From a virus: DNA of 64,000 nt. Positions 28,899-53,865 of this stretch are shown piece by piece (position 1 is the first letter of the stretch; the number at the start of each line of letters is the position of its first letter). The notes under the pieces were generated by a model. That model ran no database searches and had not been told where the DNA came from. It saw nothing but the letters and a program-made list of their open reading frames with translations. Location of the stretch: positions 1 through 64,000 of the IMG/VR virus record IMGVR_UViG_3300028840_005337; one strand, 5' to 3'. The position numbers were made by a program, and so were the translations under genes.

Positions 28899-28899
28899 A

Positions 28900-36185: not shown

Positions 36186-37508
36186 ATGCCCAGAATGCCC
36201 GAAACGTCTGATAGTGACTACACGGCTATCACACCAGACCTACGTGAACGGCGGCAAAGGCGCGGGCGCCGAACCGCCGAGACCATCGACCAGGAGCGGC
36301 TGCGGTCCATTGGTAACGACCGCAGCTGGATTCGCAACGAGGCCTGGCGCGCACCGACTCCAGTAGTCTTCAACGCCAACTACTCGTTCGTTCGCGTGCT
36401 GTCGCACGTAACGCACACCGCTACATCTATGTCGGACTACGGTGGACGATACGTTTCGGCGAGGAGTAGCGACGGCAACTACGAGTGGGATGCCACCGTA
36501 GGAGACGTCATCCTGGCGTGCTATCATCATCGACGCATGGCCGAGGAGATGCGACTGTATGTTGCGCTGCCGGATTCGTTGACATACCACGTCAATACCG
36601 GCAAGATCATGCGCGAGACTGGTTGGCATCGCCTGATGCGTCCGATCGCGCGCAGCTGGCTCGCCATGCTACCCATCCACCGAATCGTCCGTGCCTGCAT
36701 TGAAGGGACAACCGAGATTGATGCCGCGGTCGCGCTATCGTCCGACATGTCACGTGACGACACGGCAGCGCTACGCAACGCACGTGCACATTTGCAGGAA
36801 ATCCTCGCAGAAGCACTGCGTGCACCGGAGGACAGCTTCGAACGACTGATTCAGATGCAGTTCGAGGACCTTCGGCACCGGCTGATGTACATGACGGGTC
36901 AGAACCGGGAGTTCATCATGTCGGCGCTCCAGAGTCACTACAATCGCGATTTTCCGTCGCGCTCACGCGCCATGGATGACATCCGCGATATGCTGCGCAA
37001 CTGCGAGATCGACGGGGTTGCCGGCAACCTGACGCGTCGTGTACGCCACGACGCCAACGACTGCCGCGCGCTGGTACTGATGCTCGAGGGCTGCCTCGGG
37101 GTCGTCCAGGCGGAGCACCGTCGCCAGGCGTGGGTTGAGGACATCATCACGCGACTCGACGGGTGGCCCCACACCACCGGAGGCGTGAACAACCTAGTGG
37201 CCGATATGGATCTGTACGACGTGCTCGACGCAGCCAACGGCCTAATACAAAGCGAGGAATTCGTAGCTATCTCGCGAGACGGCACGCTACAACGCCAAGA
37301 AAACCCGGATGTGGATGAAGCACTTGGCGCTGTCAGACGTGTACTCGCCGATCGCTACGGTCTCGACCGCAGCAGGAGTCAGATCCGTGCTGCATTGCAA
37401 GACGTCTTCGACGAACGCGGAGGAGACGCAGAGGAACCGCAAGGTCCTGTTACAAGTGAAAGACGTCCAAGAGGAGTACGTTTAGACAGGAGAGATGATG
37501 GCGACTAA
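36186..37508 (+). CDS. Large helical protein with RGVRLDR C-terminal tag
   Basis: Start at ATG 36186 with GGAGG; an in-frame TTG 30 bp upstream is less likely. The product is 440 residues, mostly alpha-helical, Arg-rich at the N-terminus (ERRQRRGRRTAE), with no enzyme motif I recognise. It ends ERRPRGVRLDRRDDGD, a motif also at the ends of the proteins at 40507, 42007 and 53551. Directly upstream of, and overlapping by 14 bp, the AAA+ ATPase gene. Possible partner or client of that ATPase (inference). Confidence 0.72.
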   Translation: MPRMPETSDSDYTAITPDLRERRQRRGRRTAETIDQERLRSIGNDRSWIRNEAWRAPTPVVFNANYSFVRVLSHVTHTATSMSDYGGRYVSARSSDGNYEWDATVGDVILACYHHRRMAEEMRLYVALPDSLTYHVNTGKIMRETGWHRLMRPIARSWLAMLPIHRIVRACIEGTTEIDAAVALSSDMSRDDTAALRNARAHLQEILAEALRAPEDSFERLIQMQFEDLRHRLMYMTGQNREFIMSALQSHYNRDFPSRSRAMDDIRDMLRNCEIDGVAGNLTRRVRHDANDCRALVLMLEGCLGVVQAEHRRQAWVEDIITRLDGWPHTTGGVNNLVADMDLYDVLDAANGLIQSEEFVAISRDGTLQRQENPDVDEALGAVRRVLADRYGLDRSRSQIRAALQDVFDERGGDAEEPQGPVTSERRPRGVRLDRRDDGD

Positions 37509-39201
37509 ATTCGCTCAGTCCTTCATGTCGAAGATCGACTCTGGATCGTCTGTCATTTGGGTGTACTTGTCTGGCGACGAGGGCCGCGCAGAGCGAGCCC
37601 TGAAAGAGATCGCTGCCGAGTATACCAGGCAGACGCCTGTTGATCTGCGATGGTACAGCTGGAACTGTGTGACGGGAGCCAGCTGGAATACGAAGTGTAT
37701 CGACCCGTTACAAGCATTGCAGGAGGCTGCTTCCCAGAAGCTGCCAGGGGACGGCCTGATTCTCATGAAGGATCTTGGCTCGTATCTCAACGGCCAGGGG
37801 CAGAAGAACCTGCAACTACGAAGAGCGCTCATGGAGATTTGCATCGACAACGCGCTCAGCAACGACAAGAGAACGCGACCTATCGTCACACTGGCCAACA
37901 CGCCAGTCCCTCACGCCGATATTGCGGAGTACTGCGACGTCATCGACTTCGAGCTCCCGCGATACGACGAGATGAAGAAAGACGTGTTCGACTTCATCGT
38001 TGGCTCCGCCGCACGGAGCAATAAAGGTAAGAAGAAGACAACTGTGGATGCAGAGCTGGAAGAAAAGATCATCCGCTCGATGCTCGGAACGACCTCCGAA
38101 GAAGCACAGCGCATCTTTGCGTACGCGTGTGCTGTGAGTGGGGGCGTCAACGAGCAGTGTCTGGACATCATCGCCGCCGAAAAGGCGAAGGTGATCCGGA
38201 AGGTGGAGGGTCTGCGCTTCATTCCGCACGAGAAGATCCCGAACGCCGATCAGATCGGTGGCTTCAAGACCTTCTTGTCGTGGCTGCGTAAGCGCGCTCG
38301 TGCCTACACCCAGCACGCCCAAACTGTCGGGCTGGAGCTCCCACGGGGCTCGGTCCTGATCGGGCCTGCGGGTACGGGCAAGACACTGGTGGCGAAAGCC
38401 GCGGCCAAGATGCTTGGGCTGGACCTGGTGCTGATGGACATCGGCAGCATGTTCGACAAGTATGTCGGCGGATCGGAAGCGAAGATCCGTTCTGCCCTCC
38501 AAATGGTCGCAGCCATGCCGAACGCCCTGCTCATGATCGACGAGATCGACAAGGCTTTCGGCGGCGCCCACGAGAACCAGGCTGCGGACAGCGGCGTGGC
38601 GTCTCGGGTGTTGAGCTACTTCCTCAACTGGCTGAGCGAGCGGGACATGGCGTCCGATTCTGACGCCCGTACGTTCGTCATGGTCACGATGAACCGAACG
38701 GCTGGGGTTCCCGATGAACTCCTGCGTGCCGGACGATTCGATCGGGTGTGGTCCACGGACCTGCCGGACCAAGACGAGCGGCTCGAGATCCTCAGCATCC
38801 ACCTGGACCGGCGCAACTGCGACTCGGCCCACTACGGAAAGTCACTGCGTACAGTGGTGACCGGCACCGACCAATACACCGGCGCAGAGCTGGAAGAGAT
38901 CGTGATCAGCGCTCGCAATGACGCCTACGACGACCGTATGTCGAAGTGGGAGGACGCGGGCAAGAAGGGCGACCCGCCCGACGCTGAAGCGATCCGTCCG
39001 ACTGCCGAAGAGCTTCTTGCCGCTGCGAGAGAAATCACGCCGGTAGCGAAGATCAACGCAGATGCTGTCGCCGCTATCAGAAAATTCTGCCAGGAGAACA
39101 CCTACCCGGTCAACGGGGAACGCGTTCACAATACTGGCCGCAAGTCGCGGAAGGTCTCCACCGAGAGAGCCGCCACGGCTGCAGACCCCTCCTCCAACTA
39201 G
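37495..39201 (+). CDS. Ycf46-like AAA+ ATPase
   Basis: A 568-residue protein. N-terminal ~260 residues: a divergent P-loop-like domain of the Ycf46 type (WVYLSGDEGRAERALKEI, GLILMKDLGSYL, PIVTLAN, DVIDFELPRYDE). C-terminal AAA+ module: Walker A GPAGTGKT (~290), VGGSEAKIRSAL, Walker B LLMIDEIDKAFGG (~345), sensor-like MVTMNRT and arginine finger RAGRFDR (~411). Followed by DUF1257 and DUF2997 genes, the neighbourhood typical for Ycf46 in cyanobacteria and other bacteria. Cytoplasmic ATPase; role in bacteria poorly understood. Two consecutive ATG starts (37495, 37498); GGAG lies just upstream. Confidence 0.88.
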   Translation: MMATKFAQSFMSKIDSGSSVIWVYLSGDEGRAERALKEIAAEYTRQTPVDLRWYSWNCVTGASWNTKCIDPLQALQEAASQKLPGDGLILMKDLGSYLNGQGQKNLQLRRALMEICIDNALSNDKRTRPIVTLANTPVPHADIAEYCDVIDFELPRYDEMKKDVFDFIVGSAARSNKGKKKTTVDAELEEKIIRSMLGTTSEEAQRIFAYACAVSGGVNEQCLDIIAAEKAKVIRKVEGLRFIPHEKIPNADQIGGFKTFLSWLRKRARAYTQHAQTVGLELPRGSVLIGPAGTGKTLVAKAAAKMLGLDLVLMDIGSMFDKYVGGSEAKIRSALQMVAAMPNALLMIDEIDKAFGGAHENQAADSGVASRVLSYFLNWLSERDMASDSDARTFVMVTMNRTAGVPDELLRAGRFDRVWSTDLPDQDERLEILSIHLDRRNCDSAHYGKSLRTVVTGTDQYTGAELEEIVISARNDAYDDRMSKWEDAGKKGDPPDAEAIRPTAEELLAAAREITPVAKINADAVAAIRKFCQENTYPVNGERVHNTGRKSRKVSTERAATAADPSSN

Positions 39202-39211
39202 GAGATTTGCA

Positions 39212-39634
39212 TTGAGCCACATGACTCGACGCAAAAGCGCTATCAAGGACGCCGCGGCCTTGAAAAAAGCGTGCGACAAGATTCCCGGCGCACAATATAT
39301 GGGCGTCGCCAAGGGCAAAGGCGGTGGCATGCGCAACAAGCACGGCCACCAAGTCCAACTGCCCGGTTGGCGATACCCTGTAACGATCGATCAGACCACT
39401 GGGGAATGTTCGTTCGACAACTACAACGGCTCTTGGGGTAAAGAGAAAGAACTCGACAACCTCAAGCAGCAGTACGGGGTCGAAGCTGCCAAAGCCAAGG
39501 CGGAAGCCGAAGGCGCTACCGAGATGGAAGAACTGAAACTGGACGACGGCTCGATCAAGCTGGTCATCCCCATCGGGGGCGGTGACTACGCGGTCGAAGG
39601 CGACGGCGGCGGAGGTGATGGCTGGGACGTCTAG
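39212..39634 (+). CDS. DUF1257 (Ycf35-like) protein
   Basis: A 140-residue product started at TTG 39212, because TAGGAG lies 7 nt upstream and it restores the family's conserved N-terminus M-S-H-x-T/S (here MSHMTRRKSAIKD). The pattern 'A-L-K-K-A-C', a Gly-rich turn, 'G-W-R-Y-P-V' strand and KQQYGVEAAKAKAEAEG C-terminal helix follows DUF1257. It lies between the Ycf46-like and DUF2997-like genes, supporting the call. An Asp/Gly-rich end (GDGGGGDGWDV) is extra. Molecular function unknown. Confidence 0.8.
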   Translation: MSHMTRRKSAIKDAAALKKACDKIPGAQYMGVAKGKGGGMRNKHGHQVQLPGWRYPVTIDQTTGECSFDNYNGSWGKEKELDNLKQQYGVEAAKAKAEAEGATEMEELKLDDGSIKLVIPIGGGDYAVEGDGGGGDGWDV

Positions 39635-39642
39635 TCCTGCCA

Positions 39643-39669
39643 ATTTTATTCACGAGAACAAGATTGGAG
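39643..39669 (+). promoter_or_regulatory. TTTTATTCAC element upstream of the DUF2997-like gene
   Basis: ATTTTATTCACG, then AGAACAAGATTGGAG with the Shine-Dalgarno GGAG at its 3' edge, 9 nt before ATG 39675. It can form an imperfect TTATT/AACAA hairpin. Closest relative is at 53521. Confidence 0.5.
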
Positions 39670-39674
39670 AACAA

Positions 39675-39884
39675 ATGCCTATCACCGGACCCCGCATCGA
39701 GATTACGGTCTCTCCCAAGGGAGAAGCAACGACCGCAGTTTTCGGCGTCCAAGGCGGCAGCTGCCGCGCCCTGACCGAAGGTTACGAGAACCTGTTCGGT
39801 GAGGTTGAAGAAACCCTCGACACCGCAGAGGCTTACGAAGATCCCGAGGAAATCGAGATCAAGGGTGAGCAAAAGGGCGGTTAA
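39675..39884 (+). CDS. DUF2997-like small protein
   Basis: A 69-residue protein. Pattern I-x-I-x-V-S-P-x-G-E followed by FGVQGGSCRALTEGYENLFG and an acidic C-terminus with EAYEDPEE is that of DUF2997 (the G-x-x-G-x-x-C segment at ~27-33 being the best mark). In bacteria this family is encoded next to DUF1257 and Ycf46. Its Cys is a candidate for metal, thioester or disulfide chemistry; nothing is proven. Preceded by a TTTTATTCAC element. Confidence 0.75.
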   Translation: MPITGPRIEITVSPKGEATTAVFGVQGGSCRALTEGYENLFGEVEETLDTAEAYEDPEEIEIKGEQKGG

Positions 39885-40127
39885 CTGAAATAAGTCCCAG
39901 GACGAGGATGAACGGGCAGCAGCTCCGGAGGCGACGGCCTCCAACAGGAGTTGGGCGTGCCCTCTGCCTTACACCCACGTGACGCGCACGTAGTTGTGTC
40001 GGTGTGAGTGTCTGGACGGGAGCCGGGGTGTTGGATACATGCCAAAGTGTGAGCCCATCATAGCCGCACACGGCCCAGCTTAAAGGGGAAGCCGGCCCTG
40101 GGACTTTTACTATTCAAGGAGGACGAC
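39885..40127. other. 243-bp non-coding gap inside the Ycf46-like operon
   Basis: No ORF with a ribosome site. Small hairpins GGAGGC-GACG-GCCTCC (39934-39949) and ACGTG-ACGCG-CACGT (39977-39991) are visible. ACTTTTACTATTC near 40107 resembles motifs at 41645 and 56845. Could hold a promoter and leader for 40128. Confidence 0.4.
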
Positions 40128-40517
40128 ATGCCAAATGTCGAAATCGTCATTGAGGGAGACGGCACAGTTCGTCATCTGGTTGATGCCAACTCTGAGCGCA
40201 TCGGCCAGGCTATTGCTGGCGAGAAGATTGATACTCGCCGCGCCTCGCACGTGGAGACGTGGTCGAGTCTCACTGACGACGCTAAGAAGCTGCTTCTGGA
40301 GACGCGACTGGTTCGTTTGAAGAATGGCGTGCCCCACGCACGCGTCTTCGGGTCGACCCGGATCGTGGACATCCAGAACTACTTCTGGGCGGATCTTACG
40401 CCATGCAACGGCCCCATCCAGGGACCGTTTGTAAACTACGAGCAGGCCATTGGTTCTGAAATCAAATGGCTTCAATCACAAAACCTGCCCATGCCGAAGG
40501 AAGACAATGCCGACTGA
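40128..40517 (+). CDS. Small conserved-looking protein in the Ycf46-like operon
   Basis: A 129-residue protein with a perfect AAGGAGGACGAC site. It begins with a beta strand VEIVIEGDGTVRHL and has RRASHVETWSSL, YFWADLTPCNGPIQGPF and a final AIGSEIKWL. This layout (RASHVE, W-A-D-L, GPF, E-x-x-W-L) matches a type of small protein I associate with phage and bacterial loci of unknown function. The stop overlaps the next gene. Likely part of the same complex as its neighbours (inference). Confidence 0.72.
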   Translation: MPNVEIVIEGDGTVRHLVDANSERIGQAIAGEKIDTRRASHVETWSSLTDDAKKLLLETRLVRLKNGVPHARVFGSTRIVDIQNYFWADLTPCNGPIQGPFVNYEQAIGSEIKWLQSQNLPMPKEDNAD

Positions 40518-41622
40518 CGGCGAAGCCTACGAAGGCGGACAGCTTTTACAACACATCTCGCGACACGTTTTTATCGTGATGCTACACGTCTCGTGGCCGC
40601 GGTTGAGCTTCAAGATCGACAACGCCAAAGTGTCGGTCCCTGCCAACGGCGGTAGCCAAGACAAGGAGAAGGAGGTTCAGGAGAAGTACCGGACAGACCC
40701 GAAGTTCAAGTTCTGTCCTGAGGACTGGAGCAAACGCCTCGGCAACCTCGAGTACCGCGCCCGAACACGCCTCTCAAACGCATCCATCAAGTTTGCCACG
40801 CGCGGAATGGCTGTGCTACCAGTCACCCGTGCCGCTGACGTGTTCTCTGGATTCCGTACGCTCCGCGAGGAGCTGATGGGCTATCAGGAGGACTTCGTCA
40901 GCGACTACGAGCAGATCTTGGCGGATCTAAAAGATGACCTCGCAGTTGAGGTCTACGACCAAGCCTCCGGCAAGATGCCGAGTAAGCAGGAAATCGCAAC
41001 GAAATTCGGGCTTACTTGGGCGATCGTGCCTGCTGGTGGCGGCAGCAACATCAACGGTGAGCAGATCGATTTGCTGCGCAGCATCCTCCGAAGGGCGCTG
41101 CCAAACGCAAACGACATACTCGCCGTCGATATCGAGGAGGCGTCGCTCATGCTCGACCAGATCGAGTCGCAGCTGACCTCGTCGGCGATCACCGACGAAG
41201 AGGCGGCTGAGCTGATCGGCGAGGCGCGTGAGCAGATGAACAAGTTCACCGAGCAGATGCTCGAGGACATGGCTCGCGAACCGCGCCAACTGCTGGTCGA
41301 CGCGACTGATAACCTGATGGAGGCTCTCACAGATCCCAAACGCATAGTACAGAACGGCACCATCGCACAGGTCGAGCGCGCCTTCGAAATGGTCGAAGGC
41401 TTCTCATTCCTGGCCGGCGATGAGCTGCTCGCTGAAATCAAGCGAGTGCGTTCGCGGCTGAACGAGCACGAAGTCAAACAGCTGAACTCGGATGCCGAGA
41501 TCGGGGCCAAGCTGGCCGCCGGTTTGCAAGGCGTGCGAGACGAGGCTGCCAATGCGCGGTCCGCTGCGACCGCCGTACGGCAGTTCCGCGGAATCCGTTT
41601 CCGGGAAACCGCTGACACGTAA
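40507..41622 (+). CDS. Helical protein with RGIRFR C-terminal tag (possibly DUF3150-like)
   Basis: Start ATG 40507 inside the end of the preceding gene, with GAAGGAAG upstream; 371 residues. Largely alpha-helical. SNASIKFATRGMAVLPVTR then FSGFRTLREEL is reminiscent of DUF3150-type proteins found next to AAA+ ATPases, but I am not certain. Long helices (~215-330) could form coiled coils. Ends AVRQFRGIRFRETADT, the tag shared with 36186, 42007 and 53551. Confidence 0.7.
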   Translation: MPTDGEAYEGGQLLQHISRHVFIVMLHVSWPRLSFKIDNAKVSVPANGGSQDKEKEVQEKYRTDPKFKFCPEDWSKRLGNLEYRARTRLSNASIKFATRGMAVLPVTRAADVFSGFRTLREELMGYQEDFVSDYEQILADLKDDLAVEVYDQASGKMPSKQEIATKFGLTWAIVPAGGGSNINGEQIDLLRSILRRALPNANDILAVDIEEASLMLDQIESQLTSSAITDEEAAELIGEAREQMNKFTEQMLEDMAREPRQLLVDATDNLMEALTDPKRIVQNGTIAQVERAFEMVEGFSFLAGDELLAEIKRVRSRLNEHEVKQLNSDAEIGAKLAAGLQGVRDEAANARSAATAVRQFRGIRFRETADT

Positions 41623-41702
41623 CAAACAGGTGTGCCGCGGGTGGTTTTACTATTGCTTGCCCATTTCCCCACCCGCGGCCTCCTTTTCCTATAGGAGATA
41701 CT

Positions 41703-42179
41703 ATGTCCACAGCAAAGAACCTGATTCAGATGCGCACGCAGTTGGCGCACATCTCGCTGCCGGTAAGCCAGAAGGCAAAAACAGCAGCACTGCGGCTTGG
41801 AGCTGCACTCTGGGACGTTGTGCCCACACTGCCGGTCGACATATCGTACGGCGGGACTGGCCAGGTAACGCTCGAGATCGAGCTTACTGGCGGAACCGTA
41901 GGCACGGTGGAGATCGATGCCGAGGGGTACTTCTACGTGGACACCGGAACGCCCGACGAAGGTCTGGCACTCGACATCCTGATGTTCCTCGACAGGGAGA
42001 CAGGCGATGGCGAAAGCCACGAAGAAGAAGGCACCAGTCAAACGGACGGGCAAGAAGAAGCGCCCGGCCCCAAAGAAGGTGCAGATCAAAAAGAAGGCCA
42101 AGGTCAAGATGACCCGGCTCAAGAAGAAGGTAGCCAAGAAGAAGGTCAAGAAGAAAGCAAAGATGCCGACACGCAGTAG
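41703..42179 (+). CDS. Protein with acidic low-complexity tail overlapping the next gene
   Basis: A 158-residue frame with TAGGAGATACT upstream. Residues 1-~100 are a beta-rich domain (ISYGGTGQVTLEIELTGG). The last ~55 residues are Glu/Gln/Gly/Asp-rich and lie in the 5' part of the next gene, which encodes a Lys-rich tail from the same DNA in the +1 frame. The tail is probably real but unconstrained. No recognised family. Confidence 0.65.
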   Translation: MSTAKNLIQMRTQLAHISLPVSQKAKTAALRLGAALWDVVPTLPVDISYGGTGQVTLEIELTGGTVGTVEIDAEGYFYVDTGTPDEGLALDILMFLDRETGDGESHEEEGTSQTDGQEEAPGPKEGADQKEGQGQDDPAQEEGSQEEGQEESKDADTQ

Positions 42180-42543
42180 TGCGGTGAAGTACACCTTCAA
42201 GAACGGGGTCAAGCACGGCTCCGACGGAAGTACGGCGTACCCATCCAAATGCAAAGAGTCCACATCGTCGAACGGGCTGACCAAGTACCTGACGATCCTG
42301 TGGACCGATGACACACTCTCCTGCGACTGTCGCGGGTGGGCGATCCTCAAGAAGGATTCTGCTGGTAATCCCAAGCCCCGCACGTGCAAACACTGCAAGG
42401 CATCGGAGGCCAGCGACTACGACGACATGACCGCTGTCGATCAGTTCCAGCCGGGCACGGCCAACGCGCCGCGCAGCACGCAGCTGGATCTCAGTGACGA
42501 GCGTCAATGGCGGGGCATTCGTTTCCGCAATACCGAAGACTAG
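42007..42543 (+). CDS. SWIM-type zinc-finger protein with basic N-terminus and RGIRFR tag
   Basis: A 178-residue protein, with AGGGAGACAGGCG before ATG 42007. N-terminal ~55 residues are Lys/Arg-rich (KKKRPAPKK, KKKVAKKKVKKKAK), suited to nucleic acid binding. Residues ~95-130: strand YLTILWTDDT, then LSCDCRGWAIL...RTCKHCKAS, a CxC-x(n)-CxHC arrangement like SWIM domains, which bind DNA or proteins. Ends SDERQWRGIRFRNTED, the shared C-terminal tag. Encoded in the Ycf46-like operon. Confidence 0.75.
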   Translation: MAKATKKKAPVKRTGKKKRPAPKKVQIKKKAKVKMTRLKKKVAKKKVKKKAKMPTRSSAVKYTFKNGVKHGSDGSTAYPSKCKESTSSNGLTKYLTILWTDDTLSCDCRGWAILKKDSAGNPKPRTCKHCKASEASDYDDMTAVDQFQPGTANAPRSTQLDLSDERQWRGIRFRNTED

Positions 42544-42631
42544 CACCAACCCAGTCGATTGAATTTGGACCTGCTGTCGAAGCCACGTTGGCCAGACGGC
42601 GGTCCTTCCGTCAATCGACAGGAGGTGCTTC

Positions 42632-43327
42632 GTGCTTCAGCCCGGTAACTCTAAACTGGGTAACATTCATACATTCAGTCTCCCACCGTGCATCACTTGC
42701 CCTGGTGAGACAGAAGTGTGTGCTGCAAACTGCTACGGAAAGAAAGGTCACTTCCGCCGCTCCAACGTGAAGAGCAGCCACGCTGCGAACCACAAGGCGG
42801 TGAAGAAGGACAATTTCGTAAGCAAGATGGTGGATGAAATCCAGCGGAAGAACGTCAAGACGCTGCGGATCCACGTCACGGGCGACTTCTTTGACGCCCC
42901 ATACATCCGCAAGTGGATTGCCGTTGCCGAACAGTGCCCGGACGTGACGTTCTACGCGTACACCCGGTCCTGGCGCATCAAGCGATTGATGCCCGCACTG
43001 ACCGATTTCAACGCGCTGCCCAACACCAAGTTGTGGTGGTCGGTTGATGAGGACACCCACGAGATCGACGGCAAGCCGCCGACCCTCAAGGGCGTTCGGT
43101 CCGCCTACATGCAGACCTCTGACGACGAAGTTGTCCCTGCCTACTGCGACATGGTGCTGCGTACCAAGCGCGCCACGCTCGTACGGTTCACCAGCGGCCG
43201 CCTCGTGTGCCCTGGCGAGAACGGGATGACGTACAAAAGAAAAATGACGTGCGAGCGCTGCCGCATTTGTCAGACTGACAAGAAGGTGCCCCGCAAGGCT
43301 CGCACCCGGAAAAAGGTGAATGCCTAG
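42632..43327 (+). CDS. gp88-family Cys-rich protein (copy 1)
   Basis: A 231-residue product starting at GTG 42632, with AGGAGG upstream. N-terminal KLGNIHTFSLPPCITCPG, then CAANCYGKKG, is the signature of the mycobacteriophage gp88-like family. The middle has a TIM-barrel-like alternation (LRIHVTGDFFDAPYIRKW, FYAYTRSW). The C-terminal CERCRIC plus the earlier CPG may bind zinc or an Fe-S cluster. A paralogue lies at 53866. Family function is unknown. Confidence 0.78.
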   Translation: MLQPGNSKLGNIHTFSLPPCITCPGETEVCAANCYGKKGHFRRSNVKSSHAANHKAVKKDNFVSKMVDEIQRKNVKTLRIHVTGDFFDAPYIRKWIAVAEQCPDVTFYAYTRSWRIKRLMPALTDFNALPNTKLWWSVDEDTHEIDGKPPTLKGVRSAYMQTSDDEVVPAYCDMVLRTKRATLVRFTSGRLVCPGENGMTYKRKMTCERCRICQTDKKVPRKARTRKKVNA

Positions 43328-44111
43328 AAGACCACGCGACCTCCGAAAGGAGCCGCATTGGGAAGAGCATATCGGTGATTACTTCGGTAACGTCGAAGGA
43401 TGGGTCGCAGAAAATACCCTCCAACGCTGGGCACAGACCAGCGGCTCCTTCCCGATCCGGCCCTATCTCGGAAGCATAATCGCTATCTCACCGGAAAAGA
43501 AAGAGTACATCAACGGCGCCGCCTTTTGGCGCCACGACATCATCGCCGATGCGTGGCGCGGCCCTTTCAATATGGGCGGCGCGTTGATGCTACTCACAGC
43601 AGATCCGGGAACACTGTCCGGCCGAGTAAAAGATAACAACATAATCGGCCGGTGGTACGGCAATCGTGTGACGACCGCCTGGCGGTACACGAAATTGCAA
43701 CCCCGCAACGGCGAGCACTCCAACGACTGGCTCGACGCCGTGCGTAACAACCACAAGGACATCAGTTGGGATGTCAAAATGTTCATGAACGTACAGCTTA
43801 CGGGCTTGACGCCGTACGCCAAGACGCCGAATGACTTCCGCAGGATCATCAACGCGATGTTCCAGCCGCTCATCACGGATTACACGTGGATGGACGACGG
43901 TCATCTATGGGCGCTGCGGGATGCGTGTGAACAGATGCCGAAAGGCACATGGAAAAAGATGCGTGAATGGCTACTACGCCAGAAGCTATCTGACGAGGCG
44001 CGACTGGCGCTCGGTGGTCGGCCCGGCCGGCTCGCCGAAAATCAAACGCCAGCGGAGAATCGTAAGTTTCGCAAGGTCAACATCGAACGAACGGAAGGAA
44101 CTTCGGAATGA
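43320..44111 (+). CDS. Protein of unknown function
   Basis: A 263-residue protein starting ATG 43320, overlapping the gp88-like stop by 8 bp. Trp-rich (seen throughout), with VKDNNIIGRWYGNRVTTAWRY and a C-terminal basic helix. The end ENRKFRKVNIERTEGTSE distantly recalls the RG-x-R tag of neighbours but lacks the RG. No recognised domain. Confidence 0.68.
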   Translation: MPRRPRDLRKEPHWEEHIGDYFGNVEGWVAENTLQRWAQTSGSFPIRPYLGSIIAISPEKKEYINGAAFWRHDIIADAWRGPFNMGGALMLLTADPGTLSGRVKDNNIIGRWYGNRVTTAWRYTKLQPRNGEHSNDWLDAVRNNHKDISWDVKMFMNVQLTGLTPYAKTPNDFRRIINAMFQPLITDYTWMDDGHLWALRDACEQMPKGTWKKMREWLLRQKLSDEARLALGGRPGRLAENQTPAENRKFRKVNIERTEGTSE

Positions 44112-44329
44112 CGCAGATCGTATTCAGCGTCATCTGCATGGTCTCGATTGCGCTGTGGCTGCTGCTGGTCGTAAGCGTTGCGATCGCAGCGGAGACGCTC
44201 AAGAAGGTCTCGGATGACTTCAGCAGAATTCGGACCGCGGAACGGATGAAGGTGTGTCTCACGAGGCTATGTATGCCCGTGACGTTTGCTATTCTTTTGG
44301 TCTGGGCATTGTTATGTCCATACCTATAA
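44108..44329 (+). CDS. Small two-helix membrane protein
   Basis: A 73-residue protein (ATGA overlap with the previous stop). Two hydrophobic helices, residues ~3-27 (FSVICMVSIALWLLLVVSV) and ~53-72 (LCMPVTFAILLVWALLCPY), with a charged loop between. Could be a holin-like or envelope-associated protein, but no lysis neighbours are visible. Confidence 0.65.
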   Translation: MTQIVFSVICMVSIALWLLLVVSVAIAAETLKKVSDDFSRIRTAERMKVCLTRLCMPVTFAILLVWALLCPYL

Positions 44330-44365
44330 ACCGGCGGATCATCCGCCCAAACAAGGAGCTGTGCT

Positions 44366-46742: not shown

Positions 46743-46768
46743 GGTTTGTTCCCTGTTTCGAGGTCTAC

Positions 46769-49570
46769 ATGTTAAGACGCCGGTCGATCAACGCGCATAT
46801 CGGATGGCACCAGGTGCTGCCATTGCTAGGAATCAAGGCCGCCTCCACGTCCATCCCGCTGATGGTGCCCTGCCCGATGTGCAGGAAACCCCGCCTGACT
46901 ATCTACAATGATAGCAAGTTCGGCGGGAATTGGCACTACTGCCCTGACTGCCATTCCTCTGGAGATATGATAGAACTGGCAGCAAAAACGTGGAAGATCA
47001 GTTTGGAGGACACAATCCGGCGATTGGTCGCCTCCGGGCTCCCATTCCCGGCGGACGCCGTCACTCAGGAGGCAATCCGGCGCTACGAGCAGGGCTACGT
47101 GGCCGAACAAACGCACATTCGCCGGCTGCGCGAGGACAGCCGCCGGCTGATGGCCGACGGGGACGTCCAGCTCGAGCGCGTCCTCCAGCAGATGGGCCTC
47201 CCGCAGGACCACCAGCGGGCCTACTGGCGGAAGCGCATGGGGCGCTTCATCGGCGGGGCCGACAAGCTCCGCTGCATCCAGGGGTTCTACCCGCACGCCG
47301 GTCCGCGCAAAGAGAACTCTGTGGGCCGCAACGAGCACGCGAACATGTTCCGCGGCAAGGGCTGGAACGATATGCTCGTGGTGCCCTTCCACGATCTGCC
47401 CGAGCGCTGTGCCGGTGTGCTGTTCATCGGCCGCCACGCCGAGCGAGACAAAGACTACACGTTCCGGCTGGTCGACTCCAAGCTGGCGCCGCACGGGGCT
47501 GCCGCAGCTGTGGCGGAGATCGGCGTGTGCATGGCGGACGTGCTGAACGGCCCGACGTCCCATGCGCAGCTCTTCAAAAATCAGGTGTTCGTGATCCCCG
47601 ATCCGGCCACGGCGCTCAAGCTGCAGGCCCGGCACATGAAGGACGCGGACCTCCCGCTGCCGATCGTGGGCACGTACAACGCGCTGGTCCGCCGGCAGAC
47701 CCGTAAATGGGAGCTGCGCACGTACGACTTCTGGCGTACCCGACCGGACAAACGATTCATCTTCTGGGACAAGGTGCTGTCGGCCAACCTGTTCAACATG
47801 GCGGCGCGTGCCGATGGGCTTGTGAGCATCGTCCCTGCTGCGCAATACACGTGGCGGCGGCCGCCGCACATGTGGCTGCGAGACATGCAGCGCCGGGCGC
47901 GACCCTGGGCAGAGGCGCTAGAGGCGCATCTACGCGTAATCCCGGAGGACGCGGCTGCGACGCTGCTGCAAAACATCGACATCCCTCCCGACATGTTGAT
48001 GCAATTCACGGATGGCTGCTGCGACGAGGTGCAGGAGCTGCTGGAGCGCCACCGAAAGGCGGCCACGCAGTTCCACAACACGACAGTCAGGGGCCAGGGC
48101 ATTGAAGAGATGAGCAATGGCTGGCACGTCGCCAAAACCGGCGAGTGTGTCTGTGACGCCATTCTCAGGGTGGAGAAGGTCATCTGCATCGAAGACGACG
48201 AGGACGCCGACCCCTACTATCAGGGGAGGATCATCTATGGTAATGAGCAGGTGGAATTCGTTGAGCCCATGAGCAAGATCGAGAGCGACCCAGGGACATG
48301 GCTCAAGAAGAAGGTGCTGTCCAAGCTCGGCAAGATGGTCGTCATCAAGCGAGCATGGGCACCGCACATTTTCGATATTGCTCGTGGGCTACACACCCCC
48401 GAGGTCATCCGTGAAGACGGAAAGTTCGGCTGGAAGCCACGCGACAGCTGCTTCAGCCTCCCTAAGTTCGCCGTGCACGTCGGAGGTGAGGTGTGCGACG
48501 AGCCCGCTCATGTTGTCGACGCATGGGCACCAGGCCAGGATCTGGATGCGCCTACAGCGGTGATTCCCGATCTCTCTCCGCTGCTGGAGGACAGCCCAGC
48601 AAACGCTCTGGTGTGGGCAACCGCCGCCTGTATCGGAGCGAATATCTTGGCGCCTGCAGTAGGGCAGCACGTGACCGGTATAGGGCTCATCGGTCATGGT
48701 GCTGTGCTCTGCGGGAAAGAGACTGCAAGAACGTGCGGATGTTGTGAGTACAGTAGTGCGTCTGCGACGCCGGCGGGCATAGACAAATCTTTGGGAGTGA
48801 TAACTGATGTCACAGCCCGGCATCGCTGGCCGTTAATGGTGAACATGCAAAACCAAGCTCGTCGTGTCCAGGACGTCATGGCACACGGCGGCTACGAAGC
48901 AAACACCATCCTGTGCACCGATAAATGGCACGCCGACGTCTGGTCACTCGTTGGTTCGTGGCGGTTTATAAACGGACCCAAGGCCGTAGAGCCGGGGGCG
49001 CATGTGAGGCAGTTATTGCCGCGCGTGCTGCCTCTGTGGCTCAGGCGTATCAGCCAGCGCAAGTTCAAACTGGAATCACATGCGGACGAATACCTGATCC
49101 GCGTGATCGACGACATGGCGTCCATGATGCAAGAGCATGGGCCAGTCAAGGTGATCTACGAGGCTGGCAGCCGTGTAGATAACGTGGCGGAGCTACCCAA
49201 GAAGCCCGCGCAGAAGCTGGTAGCCCTGCTGCATGAGCAAATTTGTGACGGATACATTCGATTCGCACGCCCGGGCGACACGACCAAAGGGCGAGGCGCG
49301 ACGATCGTGCGGTGTGCGCCGAAAGACCGTGCGCCAGGCATTTTCATCCCTAGAGTTGCTATCACTGGCATCTGTGAGAAGCGTGGTGTGATGCCCCCCG
49401 ATCCGGCCAGGGTAAGCGACGCATTCAAAGCTGCCAATGCACTGGATGGCGAATGCGAGTATGATAATGAAAGGGGCTGGTTTATATCAGAGTCATGGTG
49501 GAACAAGCAGATCGACCGCTGCAACTCTAATCCTCAACACCGGTTAAAGGTAATAGGAGGTGACGAATGA
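46769..49570 (+). CDS. Zinc-finger primase-like replication protein
   Basis: A 933-residue protein. N-terminal CPMCRK...YCPDCHSSGDMIELAA (~35-65) is a CHC2-type primase zinc ribbon. The middle has a TOPRIM-like segment (VFVIPDPATALKLQARHM, ~270-290). Later, ~640-680, a Gly-rich loop GLIGHGAVLCGKETART stands where a helicase P-loop would be, but it does not match a good Walker A, so helicase activity is doubtful. A DNA primase or primase-derived protein is the best inference. Start ATG 46769. Confidence 0.68.
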   Translation: MLRRRSINAHIGWHQVLPLLGIKAASTSIPLMVPCPMCRKPRLTIYNDSKFGGNWHYCPDCHSSGDMIELAAKTWKISLEDTIRRLVASGLPFPADAVTQEAIRRYEQGYVAEQTHIRRLREDSRRLMADGDVQLERVLQQMGLPQDHQRAYWRKRMGRFIGGADKLRCIQGFYPHAGPRKENSVGRNEHANMFRGKGWNDMLVVPFHDLPERCAGVLFIGRHAERDKDYTFRLVDSKLAPHGAAAAVAEIGVCMADVLNGPTSHAQLFKNQVFVIPDPATALKLQARHMKDADLPLPIVGTYNALVRRQTRKWELRTYDFWRTRPDKRFIFWDKVLSANLFNMAARADGLVSIVPAAQYTWRRPPHMWLRDMQRRARPWAEALEAHLRVIPEDAAATLLQNIDIPPDMLMQFTDGCCDEVQELLERHRKAATQFHNTTVRGQGIEEMSNGWHVAKTGECVCDAILRVEKVICIEDDEDADPYYQGRIIYGNEQVEFVEPMSKIESDPGTWLKKKVLSKLGKMVVIKRAWAPHIFDIARGLHTPEVIREDGKFGWKPRDSCFSLPKFAVHVGGEVCDEPAHVVDAWAPGQDLDAPTAVIPDLSPLLEDSPANALVWATAACIGANILAPAVGQHVTGIGLIGHGAVLCGKETARTCGCCEYSSASATPAGIDKSLGVITDVTARHRWPLMVNMQNQARRVQDVMAHGGYEANTILCTDKWHADVWSLVGSWRFINGPKAVEPGAHVRQLLPRVLPLWLRRISQRKFKLESHADEYLIRVIDDMASMMQEHGPVKVIYEAGSRVDNVAELPKKPAQKLVALLHEQICDGYIRFARPGDTTKGRGATIVRCAPKDRAPGIFIPRVAITGICEKRGVMPPDPARVSDAFKAANALDGECEYDNERGWFISESWWNKQIDRCNSNPQHRLKVIGGDE

Positions 49571-49842
49571 AGGCCACCAAGATGCTGAGGACGTGCAAGC
49601 TCGTGCTCCAGGAACTGGAGGATCTCGAGGAGATGTTGCCCTTCATCCCGGGCGACCAGCGTGCGGATCAGTTCATCCACGAGAGCCGCGGAGCCGTGAC
49701 GGAGCTGCAGCTCATCGCAAAGTTCGAGACGGTGGACAACGTCACCTCCGAACAGGCCTTGCACATTCGGACGATCCAGGGCAGAATCAATAAGCTTAGG
49801 AACATGGTTCCTGAGGACATACGAAAAGAGTTCGGAGACTAG
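49567..49842 (+). CDS. Small helical protein
   Basis: A 91-residue protein with an ideal TAGGAGGTGACGA site and ATGA-type overlap with the primase-like gene. Helical, acidic, with RTCKLVLQELEDLEEMLPF and a C-terminal RINKLRNMVPEDIRKEFG. Probably translated with the primase-like gene and may assist it; no family recognised. Its TAG stop merges with the tRNA-like element that follows. Confidence 0.68.
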   Translation: MKATKMLRTCKLVLQELEDLEEMLPFIPGDQRADQFIHESRGAVTELQLIAKFETVDNVTSEQALHIRTIQGRINKLRNMVPEDIRKEFGD

Positions 49843-49921
49843 TGGTAGACGGAAATCTGCGGCGGGAATGGCTTTTAGGTCCAGTGCCCGCTTGCCGGCC
49901 GGTTCGACTCCGGTGACCACA
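49841..49921 (+). tRNA. tRNA-like element (degenerate)
   Basis: T-arm GCCGG-TTCGACT-CCGGT (49897-49913) is regular. The acceptor AGTGGTA/GACCACA has five central pairs but mismatched ends. No normal anticodon arm forms: the candidate loop around TTTTAGG has only three pairs. The region 8-48 is ~49 nt. It could be a decayed or non-decoding tRNA. Confidence 0.3.
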
Positions 49922-50340
49922 CGAACCACTGGGCAGGTCAGTATCTGGCTGGGGCTGTAGGTCTCGGCTAAGCGGGCGCAACTCCCGCCAGACGGTTCAA
50001 CAGTCGCTTGAGATACCCTCGGTAAACCGAGCGGCCGGGCCTATATGGTCGAGGGTACAGCGCTAGCCAGCTTCGACTGGGACTGTTGGTAGGACAGACG
50101 TAGGCGATAAACCGGTAGGCAGCCGCCGCGCTAAACGCGGGAGGGCACCGGGAACCGAATAAAACCTACGAGCGCCCTTTGGGTGAGGACAGTTAAAGCT
50201 ACTTATGCCTCGGCGGCGTGTGCTAAGGGAAAGCCCGCAAGGGTGCAGCATTAGTCGTAGCGCCGCAGCCCATTTTTGATATTGCTCATAACCACACATG
50301 GCGGGTATGATACGGAAAATCAACCGTATCGGAGCCCGCC
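49922..50340. other. Non-coding, hairpin-rich stretch upstream of HNH gene
   Basis: No credible ORF in ~420 bp. TACCCTCG (50014-50021) and CGAGGGTA (50050-50057) form a perfect 8-bp stem enclosing CGGT/ACCG. CCAG-CTTCGA-CTGG occurs near 50068. Possibly one large structured RNA. Confidence 0.4.
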
Positions 50341-50688
50341 ATGTCGCGTAATTCAGAGAAACGTCGCGCTAGCCAGCGGAAAGCGCAGAACAAATACTAC
50401 CAGAAGAACAAGGCCTACTACAGGCAGAAGACTAAAGAGCATAAGGCCCGGGTCAAACAGTGGGTCTTTGAGTACAAGCAGACGCATCCGTGTATTGAGT
50501 GCGGGGCCGACCACCCTGCGTACTTGGTATTTCATCATCGCGACCCTACGGCAAAAGATTTGGAAGTCGCGAACATGATCAGTCGCGGATGGGGCTTGCG
50601 CCGTATTGAGAAGGAGATCGAGAAGTGCGACGTGTTGTGTGCAAATTGCCATATGCTGTTGCACTGGGAAGAAAATGATGCGGGGTAG
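50341..50688 (+). CDS. HNH endonuclease (free-standing)
   Basis: A 115-residue protein. Basic helical N-terminus (~1-45, Lys/Gln/Tyr-rich), CIECGADH (~51), YLVFHHRDP (~61-69), then CDVLCANCHMLLHW (~94-108). This is the CxxC...HH...CxxCH HNH core. Paralogous in layout to the minus-strand gene 51211-51537. The last codons (DAG) and stop overlap the 5' end of the tRNA at 50679. Probably a mobile homing-type gene beside tRNAs. Confidence 0.85.
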   Translation: MSRNSEKRRASQRKAQNKYYQKNKAYYRQKTKEHKARVKQWVFEYKQTHPCIECGADHPAYLVFHHRDPTAKDLEVANMISRGWGLRRIEKEIEKCDVLCANCHMLLHWEENDAG

Positions 50689-50752
50689 TGTAGTGGCCTA
50701 ACACGCAGGGCTCATATCCCTGAAATCGCAGGTTCGAATCCTGTCCCCGCTA
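50679..50752 (+). tRNA. tRNA with CAT anticodon, initiator-like
   Basis: Full cloverleaf: acceptor TGCGGGG/CCCCGCT with T1-T72 unpaired, D-arm GTGT/ACAC, anticodon arm CAGGG-CTCATAT-CCCTG, T-arm GCAGG-TTCGAAT-CCTGT. A missing 1:72 pair and three G-C pairs below the anticodon loop (GGG/CCC) are initiator tRNA hallmarks; the D-stem 11:24 pair (T-A) is elongator-like. It could be initiator Met, or Ile-CAT if lysidine-modified. Confidence 0.9.
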
Positions 50753-51210
50753 CTGCTGGTGACCATGTAAACAAGAAGGCAGAGGTGGTCTGTAACGGTA
50801 TCGTACGCCGGCCAACCTGTGGACGCCCATAGGTTGAGCAAGCCGAACCAGCACAAGCACTCGCCACCCCATATGACACCTCATGGGGGAGCGTCCCGCG
50901 AGTCCATAAATCGCGATGCGAAGGACAAACGGTTGGCGTTAGTGCAGCGTGTGGCGAAGGTGTCTAGCCGCGGCCGGGCAATAGTCAGGTGCACCTGGCA
51001 GGTCGAACAACGAGCGCCGAGGTATCGGTTGGCGCCCGAAAGGGCCACGACCAGGCCTGTTGGGGTTCGATTCCCCTTCGATACCGACGCGCTTTTGATA
51101 CAGAAACGCGTTTCCCCACGTGGGAACTCAAGGGATTGTGCCCCCTTGAGAAAACTGGTAGCCCCGACCGGCAGTACCGACTGCTCAACCGGACTGACCG
51201 GTTCGGCGGA
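50753..51210. other. Non-coding, hairpin-rich stretch with a tRNA-like element
   Basis: Open frames here lack ribosome sites and match no family. Structure includes GCCC-GAAA-GGGC (around 51034-51045) and the tRNA-like element at 51022-51085. Possibly a large structured RNA between tRNAs. Confidence 0.4.
51022..51085 (+). tRNA. Truncated tRNA-like element (one arm missing)
   Basis: Acceptor GTATCGG/TCGATAC pairs over 7 bp, and T-arm TGGGG-TTCGATT-CCCCT pairs over 4 of 5. Only ~32 nt remain between position 8 and the T-arm, enough for a single arm (TGGC/GCCA), so a normal D- plus anticodon arm cannot both exist. Not expected to decode. Confidence 0.35.
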
Positions 51211-51537
51211 CTACCTATAACCATGCTCGTAGTGTACGATTCGGTGACAGTTGGCGCACAGGACAATGCATTTGTCAATCTCTACTTGGATCCTCGCGAT
51301 AGAGAATGAGCGATTGATCATCTCACTAACCTCGTGCGTTTTTACAGCTGGATCCTCGTGGTGGAAGCATAAGCACCGAAAGTCGTCGCAGCCGCAATGT
51401 AGGCATACGCTACGTTTTTTGACCTCCTCGACAAACTCGCGGTTGCGCTGTCGTGCGCGTGCGCAGCGCGCCTTATACTGCGCCTTGTTTGCTTGATAGT
51501 GTTTTGAGGCGTATTTCTTGGGATCTTTAGCTGGCAT
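51211..51537 (-). CDS. HNH endonuclease (free-standing, minus strand)
   Basis: Start at ATG 51537 on the minus strand, 6 nt after GGAGGG; 108 residues. Lys/Arg/Ala-rich N-terminus, CLHCGCDDFRCLCFHHEDP (~50-68), and CIVLCANCHRIVHYEH near the end: CxxC...HH...CxxCH. It is a relative of the HNH gene at 50341 in the opposite orientation. The tRNA at 51619 is just upstream of its start. Confidence 0.85.
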   Translation of the reverse strand: MPAKDPKKYASKHYQANKAQYKARCARARQRNREFVEEVKKRSVCLHCGCDDFRCLCFHHEDPAVKTHEVSEMINRSFSIARIQVEIDKCIVLCANCHRIVHYEHGYR

Positions 51538-51618
51538 TGGTCCCTCCATGGTTAGAATACACAGTGCAGTTTCTAACCTAATTATGCCGGTAGCTGTCGT
51601 AACGTACAATAGGAATAA

Positions 51619-51692
51619 CGCGGAGTGGTGCAGAGGCCTAGCACGCGAGCCTCATAAGCTCGAAGTCGCGGGTTCGAATCCCGCCTCCGCAA
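51619..51692 (+). tRNA. tRNA with CAT anticodon, C1-A72 mismatch
   Basis: Cloverleaf: acceptor CGCGGAG/CTCCGCA with C1-A72 mismatch, D-arm GTGC/GCAC, anticodon arm CGAGC-CTCATAA-GCTCG, T-arm GCGGG-TTCGAAT-CCCGC, all stems paired. C1-A72 and loop CTCATAA match bacterial initiator tRNA; the anticodon stem lacks the GGG/CCC run. Either initiator-like or elongator Met/Ile. Confidence 0.92.
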
Positions 51693-51732
51693 ATTGGTCG
51701 GTATATCAAGGATCATGCGAGCGAAAGCTGCA

Positions 51733-51838
51733 GTCAGCATAGTGCAACGGTATGGGCCCGCATGTAGCGGGTACCGCCTGCGCACTGAAGCGGGCCGGCC
51801 CGGGAGCAGACCCGGAATCCGGATGGACCCGTGCTGAT
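51733..51838 (+). ncRNA. Structured RNA of ~106 nt, tRNA-like closing stem
   Basis: GTCAGCA (51733-51739) pairs with TGCTGAT (51832-51838). Inside, AGTGC/GCACT and CGGTA/TACCG and CCCGC/GCGGG stack into one long hairpin (51741-51786), followed by CCCGG-type hairpins. No T-loop motif, so not a normal tRNA. Function unknown. Confidence 0.42.
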
Positions 51839-51936
51839 CGCCGTAAAGACTGATGCGGGAGCGAGATGTCCCGTACCGACCATGAAATAACGGCGCCGCG
51901 GTGGCGCCACATTGTTGTGCCATAGGAGAAAGACTC

Positions 51937-52815
51937 TTGGCAAAAGCTCGACGAAAAGTCGACCCCGTGGCGGCACTGGCCGCCGTCTCAGAAGCCGACG
52001 TCAAGCAGACGCTTGATCAGATCGGTGATTTACAAGCCAGCATGCAAGGTACGCTGGCAGGTCTTGGTGCCACGATGGTGTCCAAGATTGAGGAGCTCGG
52101 ACAACTCAACACTGCCATCGACGTGCAGAAAGATGCGTTGAAAGAGCTCCACGATATCGAAGTACAAGCGGAAACGCTGGCCGAGCTCGAGGAGCGCGAA
52201 CAGGAGCGCCTCACGGCTCACGAAAAGGCTGCGGAAGCGAGGGCACTCGAGTGGGCCGAACAGGACGCCGCACGATTGCAGTTGCTGACCCGCGAATCCG
52301 AACAGGCACAGTACCAGCGCGAGCAACGCGAGAAGCGTGCGCTTGAGGAATTCAACGCCAGCGTCACCGAACGTCAGCGCCAAGAACGCTTTCGGATGGA
52401 AGACGTGAACCGGCAGATGTCGGACAAGATCGAGGCTGTCGAAGCGCGTGAGGCTGCGGTGTCGGAGAAGGAGGAAGAGATTGCCGCCTTCCCGGCTAAG
52501 CTGGAGGCTGCTGTCGCTGCTGCGACGGAGGCAGCCGAGACGAAAGCTCAACAGGCGTTCGGCCATGAGCGGACGATCCTCAAGAAGGACGCCGAGGGCA
52601 AACTGGCGCTGGCGCACCAGCAGATCCAGGCGCTCGAAGCGACGATCCGCAGCCTGCAGGATCAACTGGAAGCTGCCGAGAACGCCGCACGCGACGCACA
52701 GACGGACGCGAAAGAGATTTCGCAGAAGGCCGTCGAGGCGAGTGCGGATCGTCAGGCGCTCACGACGCTGCAAAAGGCGATGGAGGTTCAGGCCTCTGCG
52801 CCGCAGAAGCGATAG
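51937..52815 (+). CDS. Coiled-coil protein
   Basis: Start TTG 51937, chosen because AGGAGAAAG lies 7 nt upstream. The product is 292 residues, almost wholly helical and rich in Glu, Ala, Gln and Arg. Heptad-like spacing runs from ~45 to ~285 (for example LAELEEREQERLTAHEKAA). No membrane helix or enzyme motif. Could be a scaffold, structural or segregation-type protein. It lies between tRNA genes. Confidence 0.7.
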   Translation: MAKARRKVDPVAALAAVSEADVKQTLDQIGDLQASMQGTLAGLGATMVSKIEELGQLNTAIDVQKDALKELHDIEVQAETLAELEEREQERLTAHEKAAEARALEWAEQDAARLQLLTRESEQAQYQREQREKRALEEFNASVTERQRQERFRMEDVNRQMSDKIEAVEAREAAVSEKEEEIAAFPAKLEAAVAAATEAAETKAQQAFGHERTILKKDAEGKLALAHQQIQALEATIRSLQDQLEAAENAARDAQTDAKEISQKAVEASADRQALTTLQKAMEVQASAPQKR

Positions 52816-53010
52816 GAAGCACAAGCGGCGGTTGGGAAGTCTGCGGGAGCCCGTTTATGCGCTTAGCGGCGCAGGGCGATGAGCAAGGACTGTGCAATCC
52901 ATCTGTCGTTGTCGCTCAGATGACGTGCGCTGCGAGGCAAAGTCAGGTCTGAGGACTAAAATGGAGGTATAGGATGGCGCGCGCTAGGCCTAATCACTTA
53001 CCTCCTAAAT
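52816..53010. other. Non-coding gap with hairpins
   Basis: TGCGC-TTAGCG-GCGCA (52857-52872) and CATCTG...CAGATG (52898-52920) are visible. A short ATG frame at 52974 runs through the tRNA-Glu and is rejected. Confidence 0.35.
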
Positions 53011-53083
53011 GGCCCGTTGGTCTATCGGTTATGACACCGGACTTTCGATCCGGTAAGGGTGGGTTCGATTCCCCCACGGGTCA
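53011..53083 (+). tRNA. tRNA-Glu (TTC)
   Basis: Acceptor GGCCCGT/ACGGGTC, D-arm GTC/GAC, anticodon arm CCGGA-CTTTCGA-TCCGG, T-loop TTCGATT with one mismatch in its stem. Anticodon TTC reads GAA and GAG. Confidence 0.92.
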
Positions 53084-53519
53084 CTTGCGCAGCTTGTTCA
53101 CCGTCTGTTTAGATGCGATCGCGCATCGCACCAGGCCTCTCGGCGCGCATTGGGAGAGGATGGCAGATGAACGAGTTATTGACTCCGGCAAGAACGCTTG
53201 CCCAACGCTGGGAGCAATAGAGGTGGGTGTTAAAGCCGTGGCAACGGGTTGATACCACCTAAGCGCACAAATCACATGCGTACGGGCTATGTAGGTACGG
53301 GAGAGCCGGCCGTTCTTCGGGAGCGGTTGCCGCCCTAGGTAGGTGAAACCAATTCCGCGAGGAGTCGGGATTAGCTGGACGGGTCCGTCAAGAGCGCCGC
53401 GGTGCATAGGTTGCGGGAGTAGCCAGCGGGATTGAATTGCGTCGTCGCTGGTCCGCCAACAGTGACCACCATACCACGGCTATGTGTCGCAACGGTCGGG
53501 GTGGTCCATGGTACGCATG
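53084..53519. other. 436-bp non-coding stretch between tRNA-Glu and the next gene
   Basis: No supported ORF. Inverted segments such as GACCACC (53464-53470) and GGTGGTC (53501-53507) suggest RNA folding. It may be a second large structured RNA or leader. Confidence 0.4.
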
Positions 53520-53520
53520 A

Positions 53521-53546
53521 TTTTATTCACGTCAATAAGATTGGAG
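53521..53546 (+). promoter_or_regulatory. TTTTATTCAC element upstream of the tagged 84-residue gene
   Basis: TTTTATTCACG, then TCAATAAGATTGGAG, with GGAG at 53543-53546 before ATG 53551. TTATT/AATAA hairpin. It aligns with 39643 over nearly its whole length. Confidence 0.55.
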
Positions 53547-53550
53547 ACCG

Positions 53551-53805
53551 ATGGATTTCGAGGAAGCTCTGCGCCAGTGGTGCGCACGCAACCTGCAGGT
53601 CACGCTGAGCCACTTCGATCGTGACAACGGCTTGCTTGACTTGGTTCTCGACCTTTACGTGAATGGCGTCGTCGTTTCGACGGCGACCACGATGGTCGAT
53701 CTTAACGAGCTGCTCCGGAAACCCGAACCGGAGCCGGATCCGCCGTCCGACGAGCGGAATCCACGAGGCGTGCGGCTCGATCGCACGGAAAGCCCTGTGG
53801 TGTAA
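53551..53805 (+). CDS. Small protein with RGVRLDR C-terminal tag
   Basis: An 84-residue protein, GGAG site within the TTTTATTCAC element. Alpha/beta N-terminal part, Pro-rich linker (EPEPDPP), then SDERNPRGVRLDRTESPVV, the same tag as 36186, 40507 and 42007. The last 15 bp, including the stop, are the first 15 bases of tRNA-Gln. Confidence 0.72.
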   Translation: MDFEEALRQWCARNLQVTLSHFDRDNGLLDLVLDLYVNGVVVSTATTMVDLNELLRKPEPEPDPPSDERNPRGVRLDRTESPVV

Positions 53806-53863: not shown

Positions 53864-53865
53864 CT

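Follow-up and report, generated by a model that had tools for sequence, protein, structure and literature searches.

A short arginine-containing peptide on unrelated phage proteins as a candidate docking signal for a Cdc48-like ATPase assembly

Why do proteins with unrelated bodies end in the same peptide, and what might read it? The question is raised by a 64,000-nucleotide stretch of viral DNA (the window; positions 1 to 64,000 of IMG/VR record IMGVR_UViG_3300028840_005337), in which an initial annotation described a C-terminal tag, ER-x-x-RG-[VI]-R-[LF], on four proteins, three of them flanking an AAA ATPase. These four C-termini are indeed present in the genes that begin at 36186, 40507, 42007 and 53551, where they are encoded at 37458-37490, 41575-41607, 42499-42531 and 53752-53784, and the strict core R-G-[VI]-R-[LF] has no other occurrence in the six frames of the window. 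The window is contained in a 133,609-base virus record (G000), the remainder of which we read in genome coordinates; G000 encodes a baseplate-type protein and the large terminase subunit, which mark it as a tailed phage. Our comparisons suggest that the tag is probably an address label that assembles proteins at an ATPase machine, because in many bacteria the partners of a related ATPase carry the same peptide.

The figure of four proteins proved to be an undercount, and the glycine at motif position 5 is merely one option. A looser scan finds six tagged proteins in the window, all tagged at the C-terminus; the additional, diverged copies lie on the ATPase itself (GRKSRKVSTER) and on the product of gene 43320 (NRKFRKVNIER). 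At least six genes outside the window bring the number of tagged proteins in G000 to 12. These encode ERRPRRIVLRG (65430-65897), RTPRKVETAR (about 89538-90149), RRRPRGLRLPG (111473-112234), TRRPRLLRFRK (127586-128122), an internal copy that precedes an acidic stretch in a linker (DRTPRGVRLRN; 112191-112937), and an N-terminal copy (MSNRNPRGIRLDR; 129791-130450). The genes at 111473 and 112191 are overlapping neighbours with one tag each; related phages G001 and G003 contain syntenic tagged genes whose bodies are too diverged to cluster with them. The general pattern is R-x-x-R-x-[IV]-x-[LIFT], most commonly in the form ER-x-P-R-[GKRN]-[IV]-R-L. Counted from the first arginine, the consensus of 63 tags has R1 and R4 (a constancy partly imposed by the search pattern), P or F at position 3, K, G or R at 5, I or V at 6, mainly R or K at 7, L, I, T or F at 8, and often R or K at 9-10. 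A variant, V-x-T-x-R, is found in the ATPase, 43320 and 89538 families.

The initial annotation had proposed a motif search in the rest of the genome and in related phages, and this search found the tag kept on the same orthologues, even on those whose bodies share only 20-30% identity. The related contigs from IMG/VR, which may be incomplete records, measure 226 kb (G001), 153 kb (G003), 101 kb (G002), 58 kb (G004) and 18 kb (G007), and their ATPases are 52-72% identical to that of the window. The number of tagged proteins per relative runs from several to seventeen; together they form about eleven orthologue groups plus singletons, several of the latter small and of unverified gene status. 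Mean body identity across orthologues is 26-60%, and the R, R and [IV] columns of the tag are 78-100% conserved. The plainest example is the 36186 family, whose tail stays constant on bodies that share 20-23% identity with that of the window protein; RxFRGI is invariant in the DUF3150 orthologues; and both R1 and R4 and the final arginine are invariant in gene 43320 across four genomes. Orthologues of the SWIM-like protein encoded at 42007 retain the tag in G001, G002, G004 and G007, and the G003 orthologue has lost its C-terminal half together with the tag. Gene 127586 and its counterpart in G001 (L031 6840-7436) occupy the same slot in gene order, both are tagged, and both look membrane-anchored by eye, with an N-terminal hydrophobic stretch. 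Gene 53551 has no orthologue in the related phage genomes read. A search with the 65430 family reaches the Vequintavirinae and Acinetobacter phages, and the distant homologues examined there (CR8 and vB_AbaM_P1) have no tag.

Could such a short motif arise by chance, or could gene ends share an element of DNA or RNA that is read as peptide? The genome is GC-rich and arginine codons are abundant. Within 25 residues of a stop, the pattern R..R.[IV][RK][LIF] nevertheless has 29 occurrences in the five related phage genomes, where residue shuffling leads one to expect 1.3, and 0 in stretches of two control phages, which speaks strongly against chance. The tag codons vary synonymously, both between tags and between orthologues; selection therefore acts on the protein, and a DNA element is rejected. 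With conservation across orthologues added, we give this explanation almost no credence. Position-weight scans were trained on the tags and are partly circular, and the pattern counts and orthologue comparisons are less so.

The ATPase contains the classical AAA features, with Walker A (GPAGTGKT), Walker B (LLMIDEID) and an arginine finger (RAGRFDR), and matches Pfam AAA over residues 287-418 (4e-24) and PHROG 8638 over residues 12-553 (E 4.1e-95). Searches with PDB profiles and by fold group its second half with Cdc48/p97-type AAA domains, and this half is predicted to be an active Cdc48-like domain. Pfam gives no match for the first half, which appears AAA-like in the structural model alone (predicted local distance difference test (pLDDT) score of 62). 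Cdc48/p97 proper combines an N domain with a pair of active AAA domains, and the window protein is not of this kind; its PDB-profile and Pfam matches span the second half alone. In G003, a stretch of about 890 bases (L011 11068-11954) splits the ATPase gene between residues 349 and 368 and may be an intron, an intein or an inserted homing gene. Among known families, the closest are PHROG 8638 and bacterial SpoVK/Cdc48-like proteins. Bacterial proteins that have a pair of AAA domains, of which the first is inactive, and that are at times encoded near PspA have been reported (PMC11237479), and they may include the family of the window ATPase; the text of that paper available to us describes neither a terminal tag nor an operon of four genes. 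Relatives of the ATPase are found in Mycobacterium phages of the Corndog type, in Pseudomonas and Rhodobacter phages and in Streptococcus satellite phages. Two of the 18 annotated proteins of Javan368 match a strict C-terminal version of the motif, namely the ATPase (ending KTRKVLV) and a 573-residue protein (ending SNRKIKI), and in RcMenchie the gene that follows the ATPase ends GRKITI. The weaker tails of Smooch and SM1 were not counted.

Does the tag accompany the ATPase beyond phages? Genomes scanned with the Javan368 ATPase yielded at least 80 loci in Bacillota, Pseudomonadota, Bacteroidota, Actinomycetota and others; all operon counts below refer to these listed loci, which are not independent. 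They contain four genes, encoding protein A (about 155 residues), protein B (about 570 residues), protein C (about 150-200 residues) and the ATPase. A motif chosen after inspection, R-x-[IV]-x-[IL], lies at the C-terminus of the ATPase (KTRKVLV, GKRSIII, SRRVVLG), B (SNRRIKV, HDTARAVM, NERNINI) and C (GRKIIF, GRRVIL, RRRILI), and at the N-terminus of A (MARAILG, MGRIILQ, MPRPML; MGHLERPRRIVQ in Streptomyces). One regular expression matches the tails of 55 of 80 ATPases, 41 of 78 C proteins and 26 of 75 B proteins, compared with 2-5% of 13-residue windows of the same proteins; the N-terminus of A matches in 43 of 64 loci, a generous figure obtained with a looser expression and several start codons tried. 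In nine loci (L130, L134, L144, L148, L152, L153, L158, L161 and L166) the ATPase lacks the tail and B keeps RNI-x-[IV], which indicates that the ATPase tail is dispensable where partner tails are not. Correlated tail loss in Bacilli was considered and rejected, as partner B retains its tail there. Phage and bacterial ATPases align by hhalign with a probability of 100 and an E of 2.5e-43, and bacterial GPRNV falls opposite phage KSRKV, consistent with homology of the two through to the tail. No homology was detected between B and the phage DUF3150 protein or between C and the 36186 protein (probability 0.4, E 0.15), and homology of these partners was rejected as the cause of the shared tails. 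For the same reason the phage cluster is not classed as a member of the operon. PADLOC and NCBIfam return generic AAA matches alone and no named system for the operon, and all matches of a plasmid search with partner B are unnamed or unannotated.

The position of the tag bears on how it might act. Up to about 20 residues follow it in some proteins, and in a zinc-ribbon-like family it is N-terminal in all three genomes where that family was found. In AlphaFold2 models of the ATPase and a DUF3150 protein, both of low overall confidence (mean pLDDT 62 and 68), the tag forms a low-confidence coil (pLDDT about 29-45) and is predicted to lie in a disordered tail; in neither model is it docked on its own chain. 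With I6 and L8 in alternate positions, the tag may form an extended strand. Unfoldases of this class work on disordered ends, and the tag could be a degron or pull-site, gripped by the ATPase (with or without a protease at its side) so that its bearers are unfolded or degraded at a particular stage. We regard this as improbable: N-terminal copies are conserved and a linker copy is present, the ATPase is tagged together with all its stable operon partners, and no protease turned up in the cluster. Degradation was one of the functions first proposed, but a purely C-terminal degron does not fit the N-terminal and linker positions and the residues beyond the tag. The part of the initial proposal that stands is a shared recognition peptide on unrelated proteins, strongly supported by orthologue conservation, protein-level selection and predicted disordered tails; the C-terminal location holds for most proteins but not strictly, as G000 has one N-terminal and one internal copy.

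A docking motif is compatible with copies at the N-terminus or in a linker, and about half of our confidence goes to a model in which the tag is a portable short linear motif that gathers unrelated proteins on a Cdc48/Ycf46-like ATPase assembly. As far as tested, the ATPase and the tag are the components common to both tag-bearing systems, since the tested partners are unrelated; with the nine tailless-ATPase loci, this comparison favours the ATPase, or a complex organised by it, as the docking place. The earlier idea that the ATPase reads the tag thus gains indirect support, because the tag accompanies the ATPase in phages and bacteria while the tested partners lack detectable homology; we infer that the ATPase, and not another subunit, does the reading. 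In the proposed mechanism, the tag probably docks in extended-strand form, with R1, R4, [IV]6, [LIFT]8 and often a basic residue at 9-10 as its contacts. Tagged phage proteins would most likely be collected at a groove repeated on a putative ATPase hexamer; the ATPase's own tail would occupy this groove too, either in cis or on an adjacent subunit, and serve as regulator or placeholder; and the ATPase would then assemble, remodel or activate the collected proteins.

Several observations weigh against this docking model. The ATPase is usually tagged itself, a feature that the initial annotation overlooked and for which every model must account. The untagged DUF1257-like and DUF2997-like orthologues are as constant across the phage group as the ATPase and are candidate readers there. 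The ATPase tails of Corndog-type and Samunavirus phages are weakly similar to the tag, and the bacterial motif is shorter than the phage tag, was defined after inspection and comes from loci that are not independent. It is possible, if doubtful, that the tag docks on another hub (the DUF1257-like or DUF2997-like protein, the untagged 35446 protein, a host protein, or other tags through homotypic strand stacking) and that the ATPase is a client. The tag on the ATPase would be explained, the two DUF genes are conserved beside the phage ATPase, and bacterial tails such as KVLV, SIII and KIIF look strand-prone. Set against this, no such hub is known to be common to the phage and bacterial systems, and all four bacterial operon proteins bear the motif. 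Homotypic stacking is further disfavoured by the high charge of the phage tags, which is unlike typical amyloid motifs.

With three to six arginines or lysines per tag, and some tagged genes adjoining DNA-metabolism genes (SbcC-like, and RNase H-like by eye), the tag could be a basic peptide, AT-hook-like or RNA-binding, that holds proteins on nucleic acid. This appears quite improbable, as the arginines and the hydrophobic positions 6 and 8 are equally conserved, bacterial versions have fewer basic residues and some tagged proteins look membrane-anchored by eye. Phages also load proteins into capsids through short terminal peptides, and packaging was among the functions suggested initially; a capsid-loading or head-protease signal on virion proteins is a very improbable reading: the same tail is found on operons of bacterial chromosomes. 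Proteomics of Corndog argues weakly in the same direction, as the related ATPase seems to be listed with peptides in one of three samples (column order inferred), and the twice-banded virion proteins are the products of genes 34-67 plus gp13 (PMC4351075).

The ATPase cluster lies on the plus strand. Gene 36186 (36186..37508) encodes 440 residues from the ATG at 36186, in an open reading frame that opens with TTG at 36156; it has no Pfam or PHROG match and ends with ERRPRGVRLDR. The ATPase (37495..39201; 568 residues) has its tag, recognized by alignment of tails, at 39136-39168. An untagged DUF1257-like (Ycf35-like) gene follows (39062..39634; Pfam E 0.0013, slightly under the cut-off) and probably starts near 39212, because relatives align from residue 51. 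Two small untagged genes have orthologues in five of five relatives: one at 39582..39884, next to the ATPase and conserved there, which is DUF2997-like by eye alone, and one at 40128..40517. The DUF3150 protein (40507..41622; 371 residues; Pfam 2.3e-07; tag VRQFRGIRFRE) has a disordered tail in the model, no significant match by fold search and no relative in a genome scan with its alignment. Antisense at the 5' end of a DUF3150 gene in a related contig is a homologue (L008 3593-4102, minus strand) of window gene 7466-7960. The SWIM-like protein (42007..42543; tag ERQWRGIRFRN) has, by eye, a CxC...CxHC cluster, and its N-terminus is lysine-rich. It is followed by an untagged GP88 family gene (42632..43327; Pfam 1.3e-39), whose matches in relatives also match a second GP88-like gene at 53824-54576, and by gene 43320 (43320..44111; 263 residues; tag at 44058-44090). 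Distant from the cluster, the small gene 53551 (53551..53805; 84 residues; tag ERNPRGVRLDR) overlaps at its 3' end the tRNA-Gln gene at 53791-53864. Four tRNA genes (two Met, Glu and Gln) lie amid small open reading frames at 50679-53864, and two open reading frames, at 50341-50688 (plus strand) and 51211-51609 (minus strand), look HNH-type by eye. Elsewhere, a heptosyltransferase-like (GT9) gene at 28730-30889 and a PfkB-cytidylyltransferase fusion at 86104-87615 of G000 suggest sugar synthesis or transfer by the phage. Outside the window, a family A DNA polymerase with a uracil-DNA-glycosylase-superfamily domain is encoded at 99848-103033, a pairing also annotated in Pseudomonas phage SM1.

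No description of the tag was found in the open-licence literature. It is tempting to speculate, with confidence somewhat short of even, that a widespread and undescribed bacterial AAA machine is built through a common terminal peptide, and that a group of large phages made this peptide a genome-wide sorting code which routes at least 12 unrelated proteins to the phage copy. If so, the tag would offer a function-independent handle on about a dozen uncharacterised proteins per phage and would predict membership in the machine, including an operon of many phyla without a named function in the libraries searched. One short peptide as a proteome-wide address would be unusual among viruses, and the targets of a Ycf46/Cdc48-like ATPase would become directly testable through it.

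How does the tag compare with known systems? In ssrA-type degrons, a C-terminal peptide is likewise recognised by an AAA unfoldase; these require a free C-terminus, and the phage tag is also found N-terminally, in a linker, up to about 20 residues from the end, and on the ATPase complex itself. Bacterial amyloid signalling motifs (BASS) are short and lie at the termini of otherwise unrelated, gene-linked proteins, a likeness apparent from the available text of two papers (PMC8086366, PMC12261475). They belong to another sequence class, whereas the phage tags are strongly charged, and no NLR receptor was found here. The AAA ATPase Vps4 recognises, through its MIT domain, the MIM motifs in the tails of ESCRT-III proteins, so that here too a single classical AAA ATPase is recruited by short motifs near the C-termini of several proteins. 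MIMs are confined to one protein family and are read by a small helical domain; the phage tag occurs on unrelated bodies, looks extended and basic, can be N-terminal, and is also on the ATPase. The SHP, VIM and VBM motifs of p97/Cdc48 cofactors, which bind the p97 N domain, are likewise short, partly arginine-rich and borne by unrelated partners of a Cdc48-type ATPase. Their consensus differs from the tag, the window ATPase gives no evidence of an N domain, and we know of no phage-wide set of such motifs. Because the motif differs, the tag is classed with neither group; by analogy, it may work as MIMs do with Vps4, or as SHP and VIM motifs do with p97.

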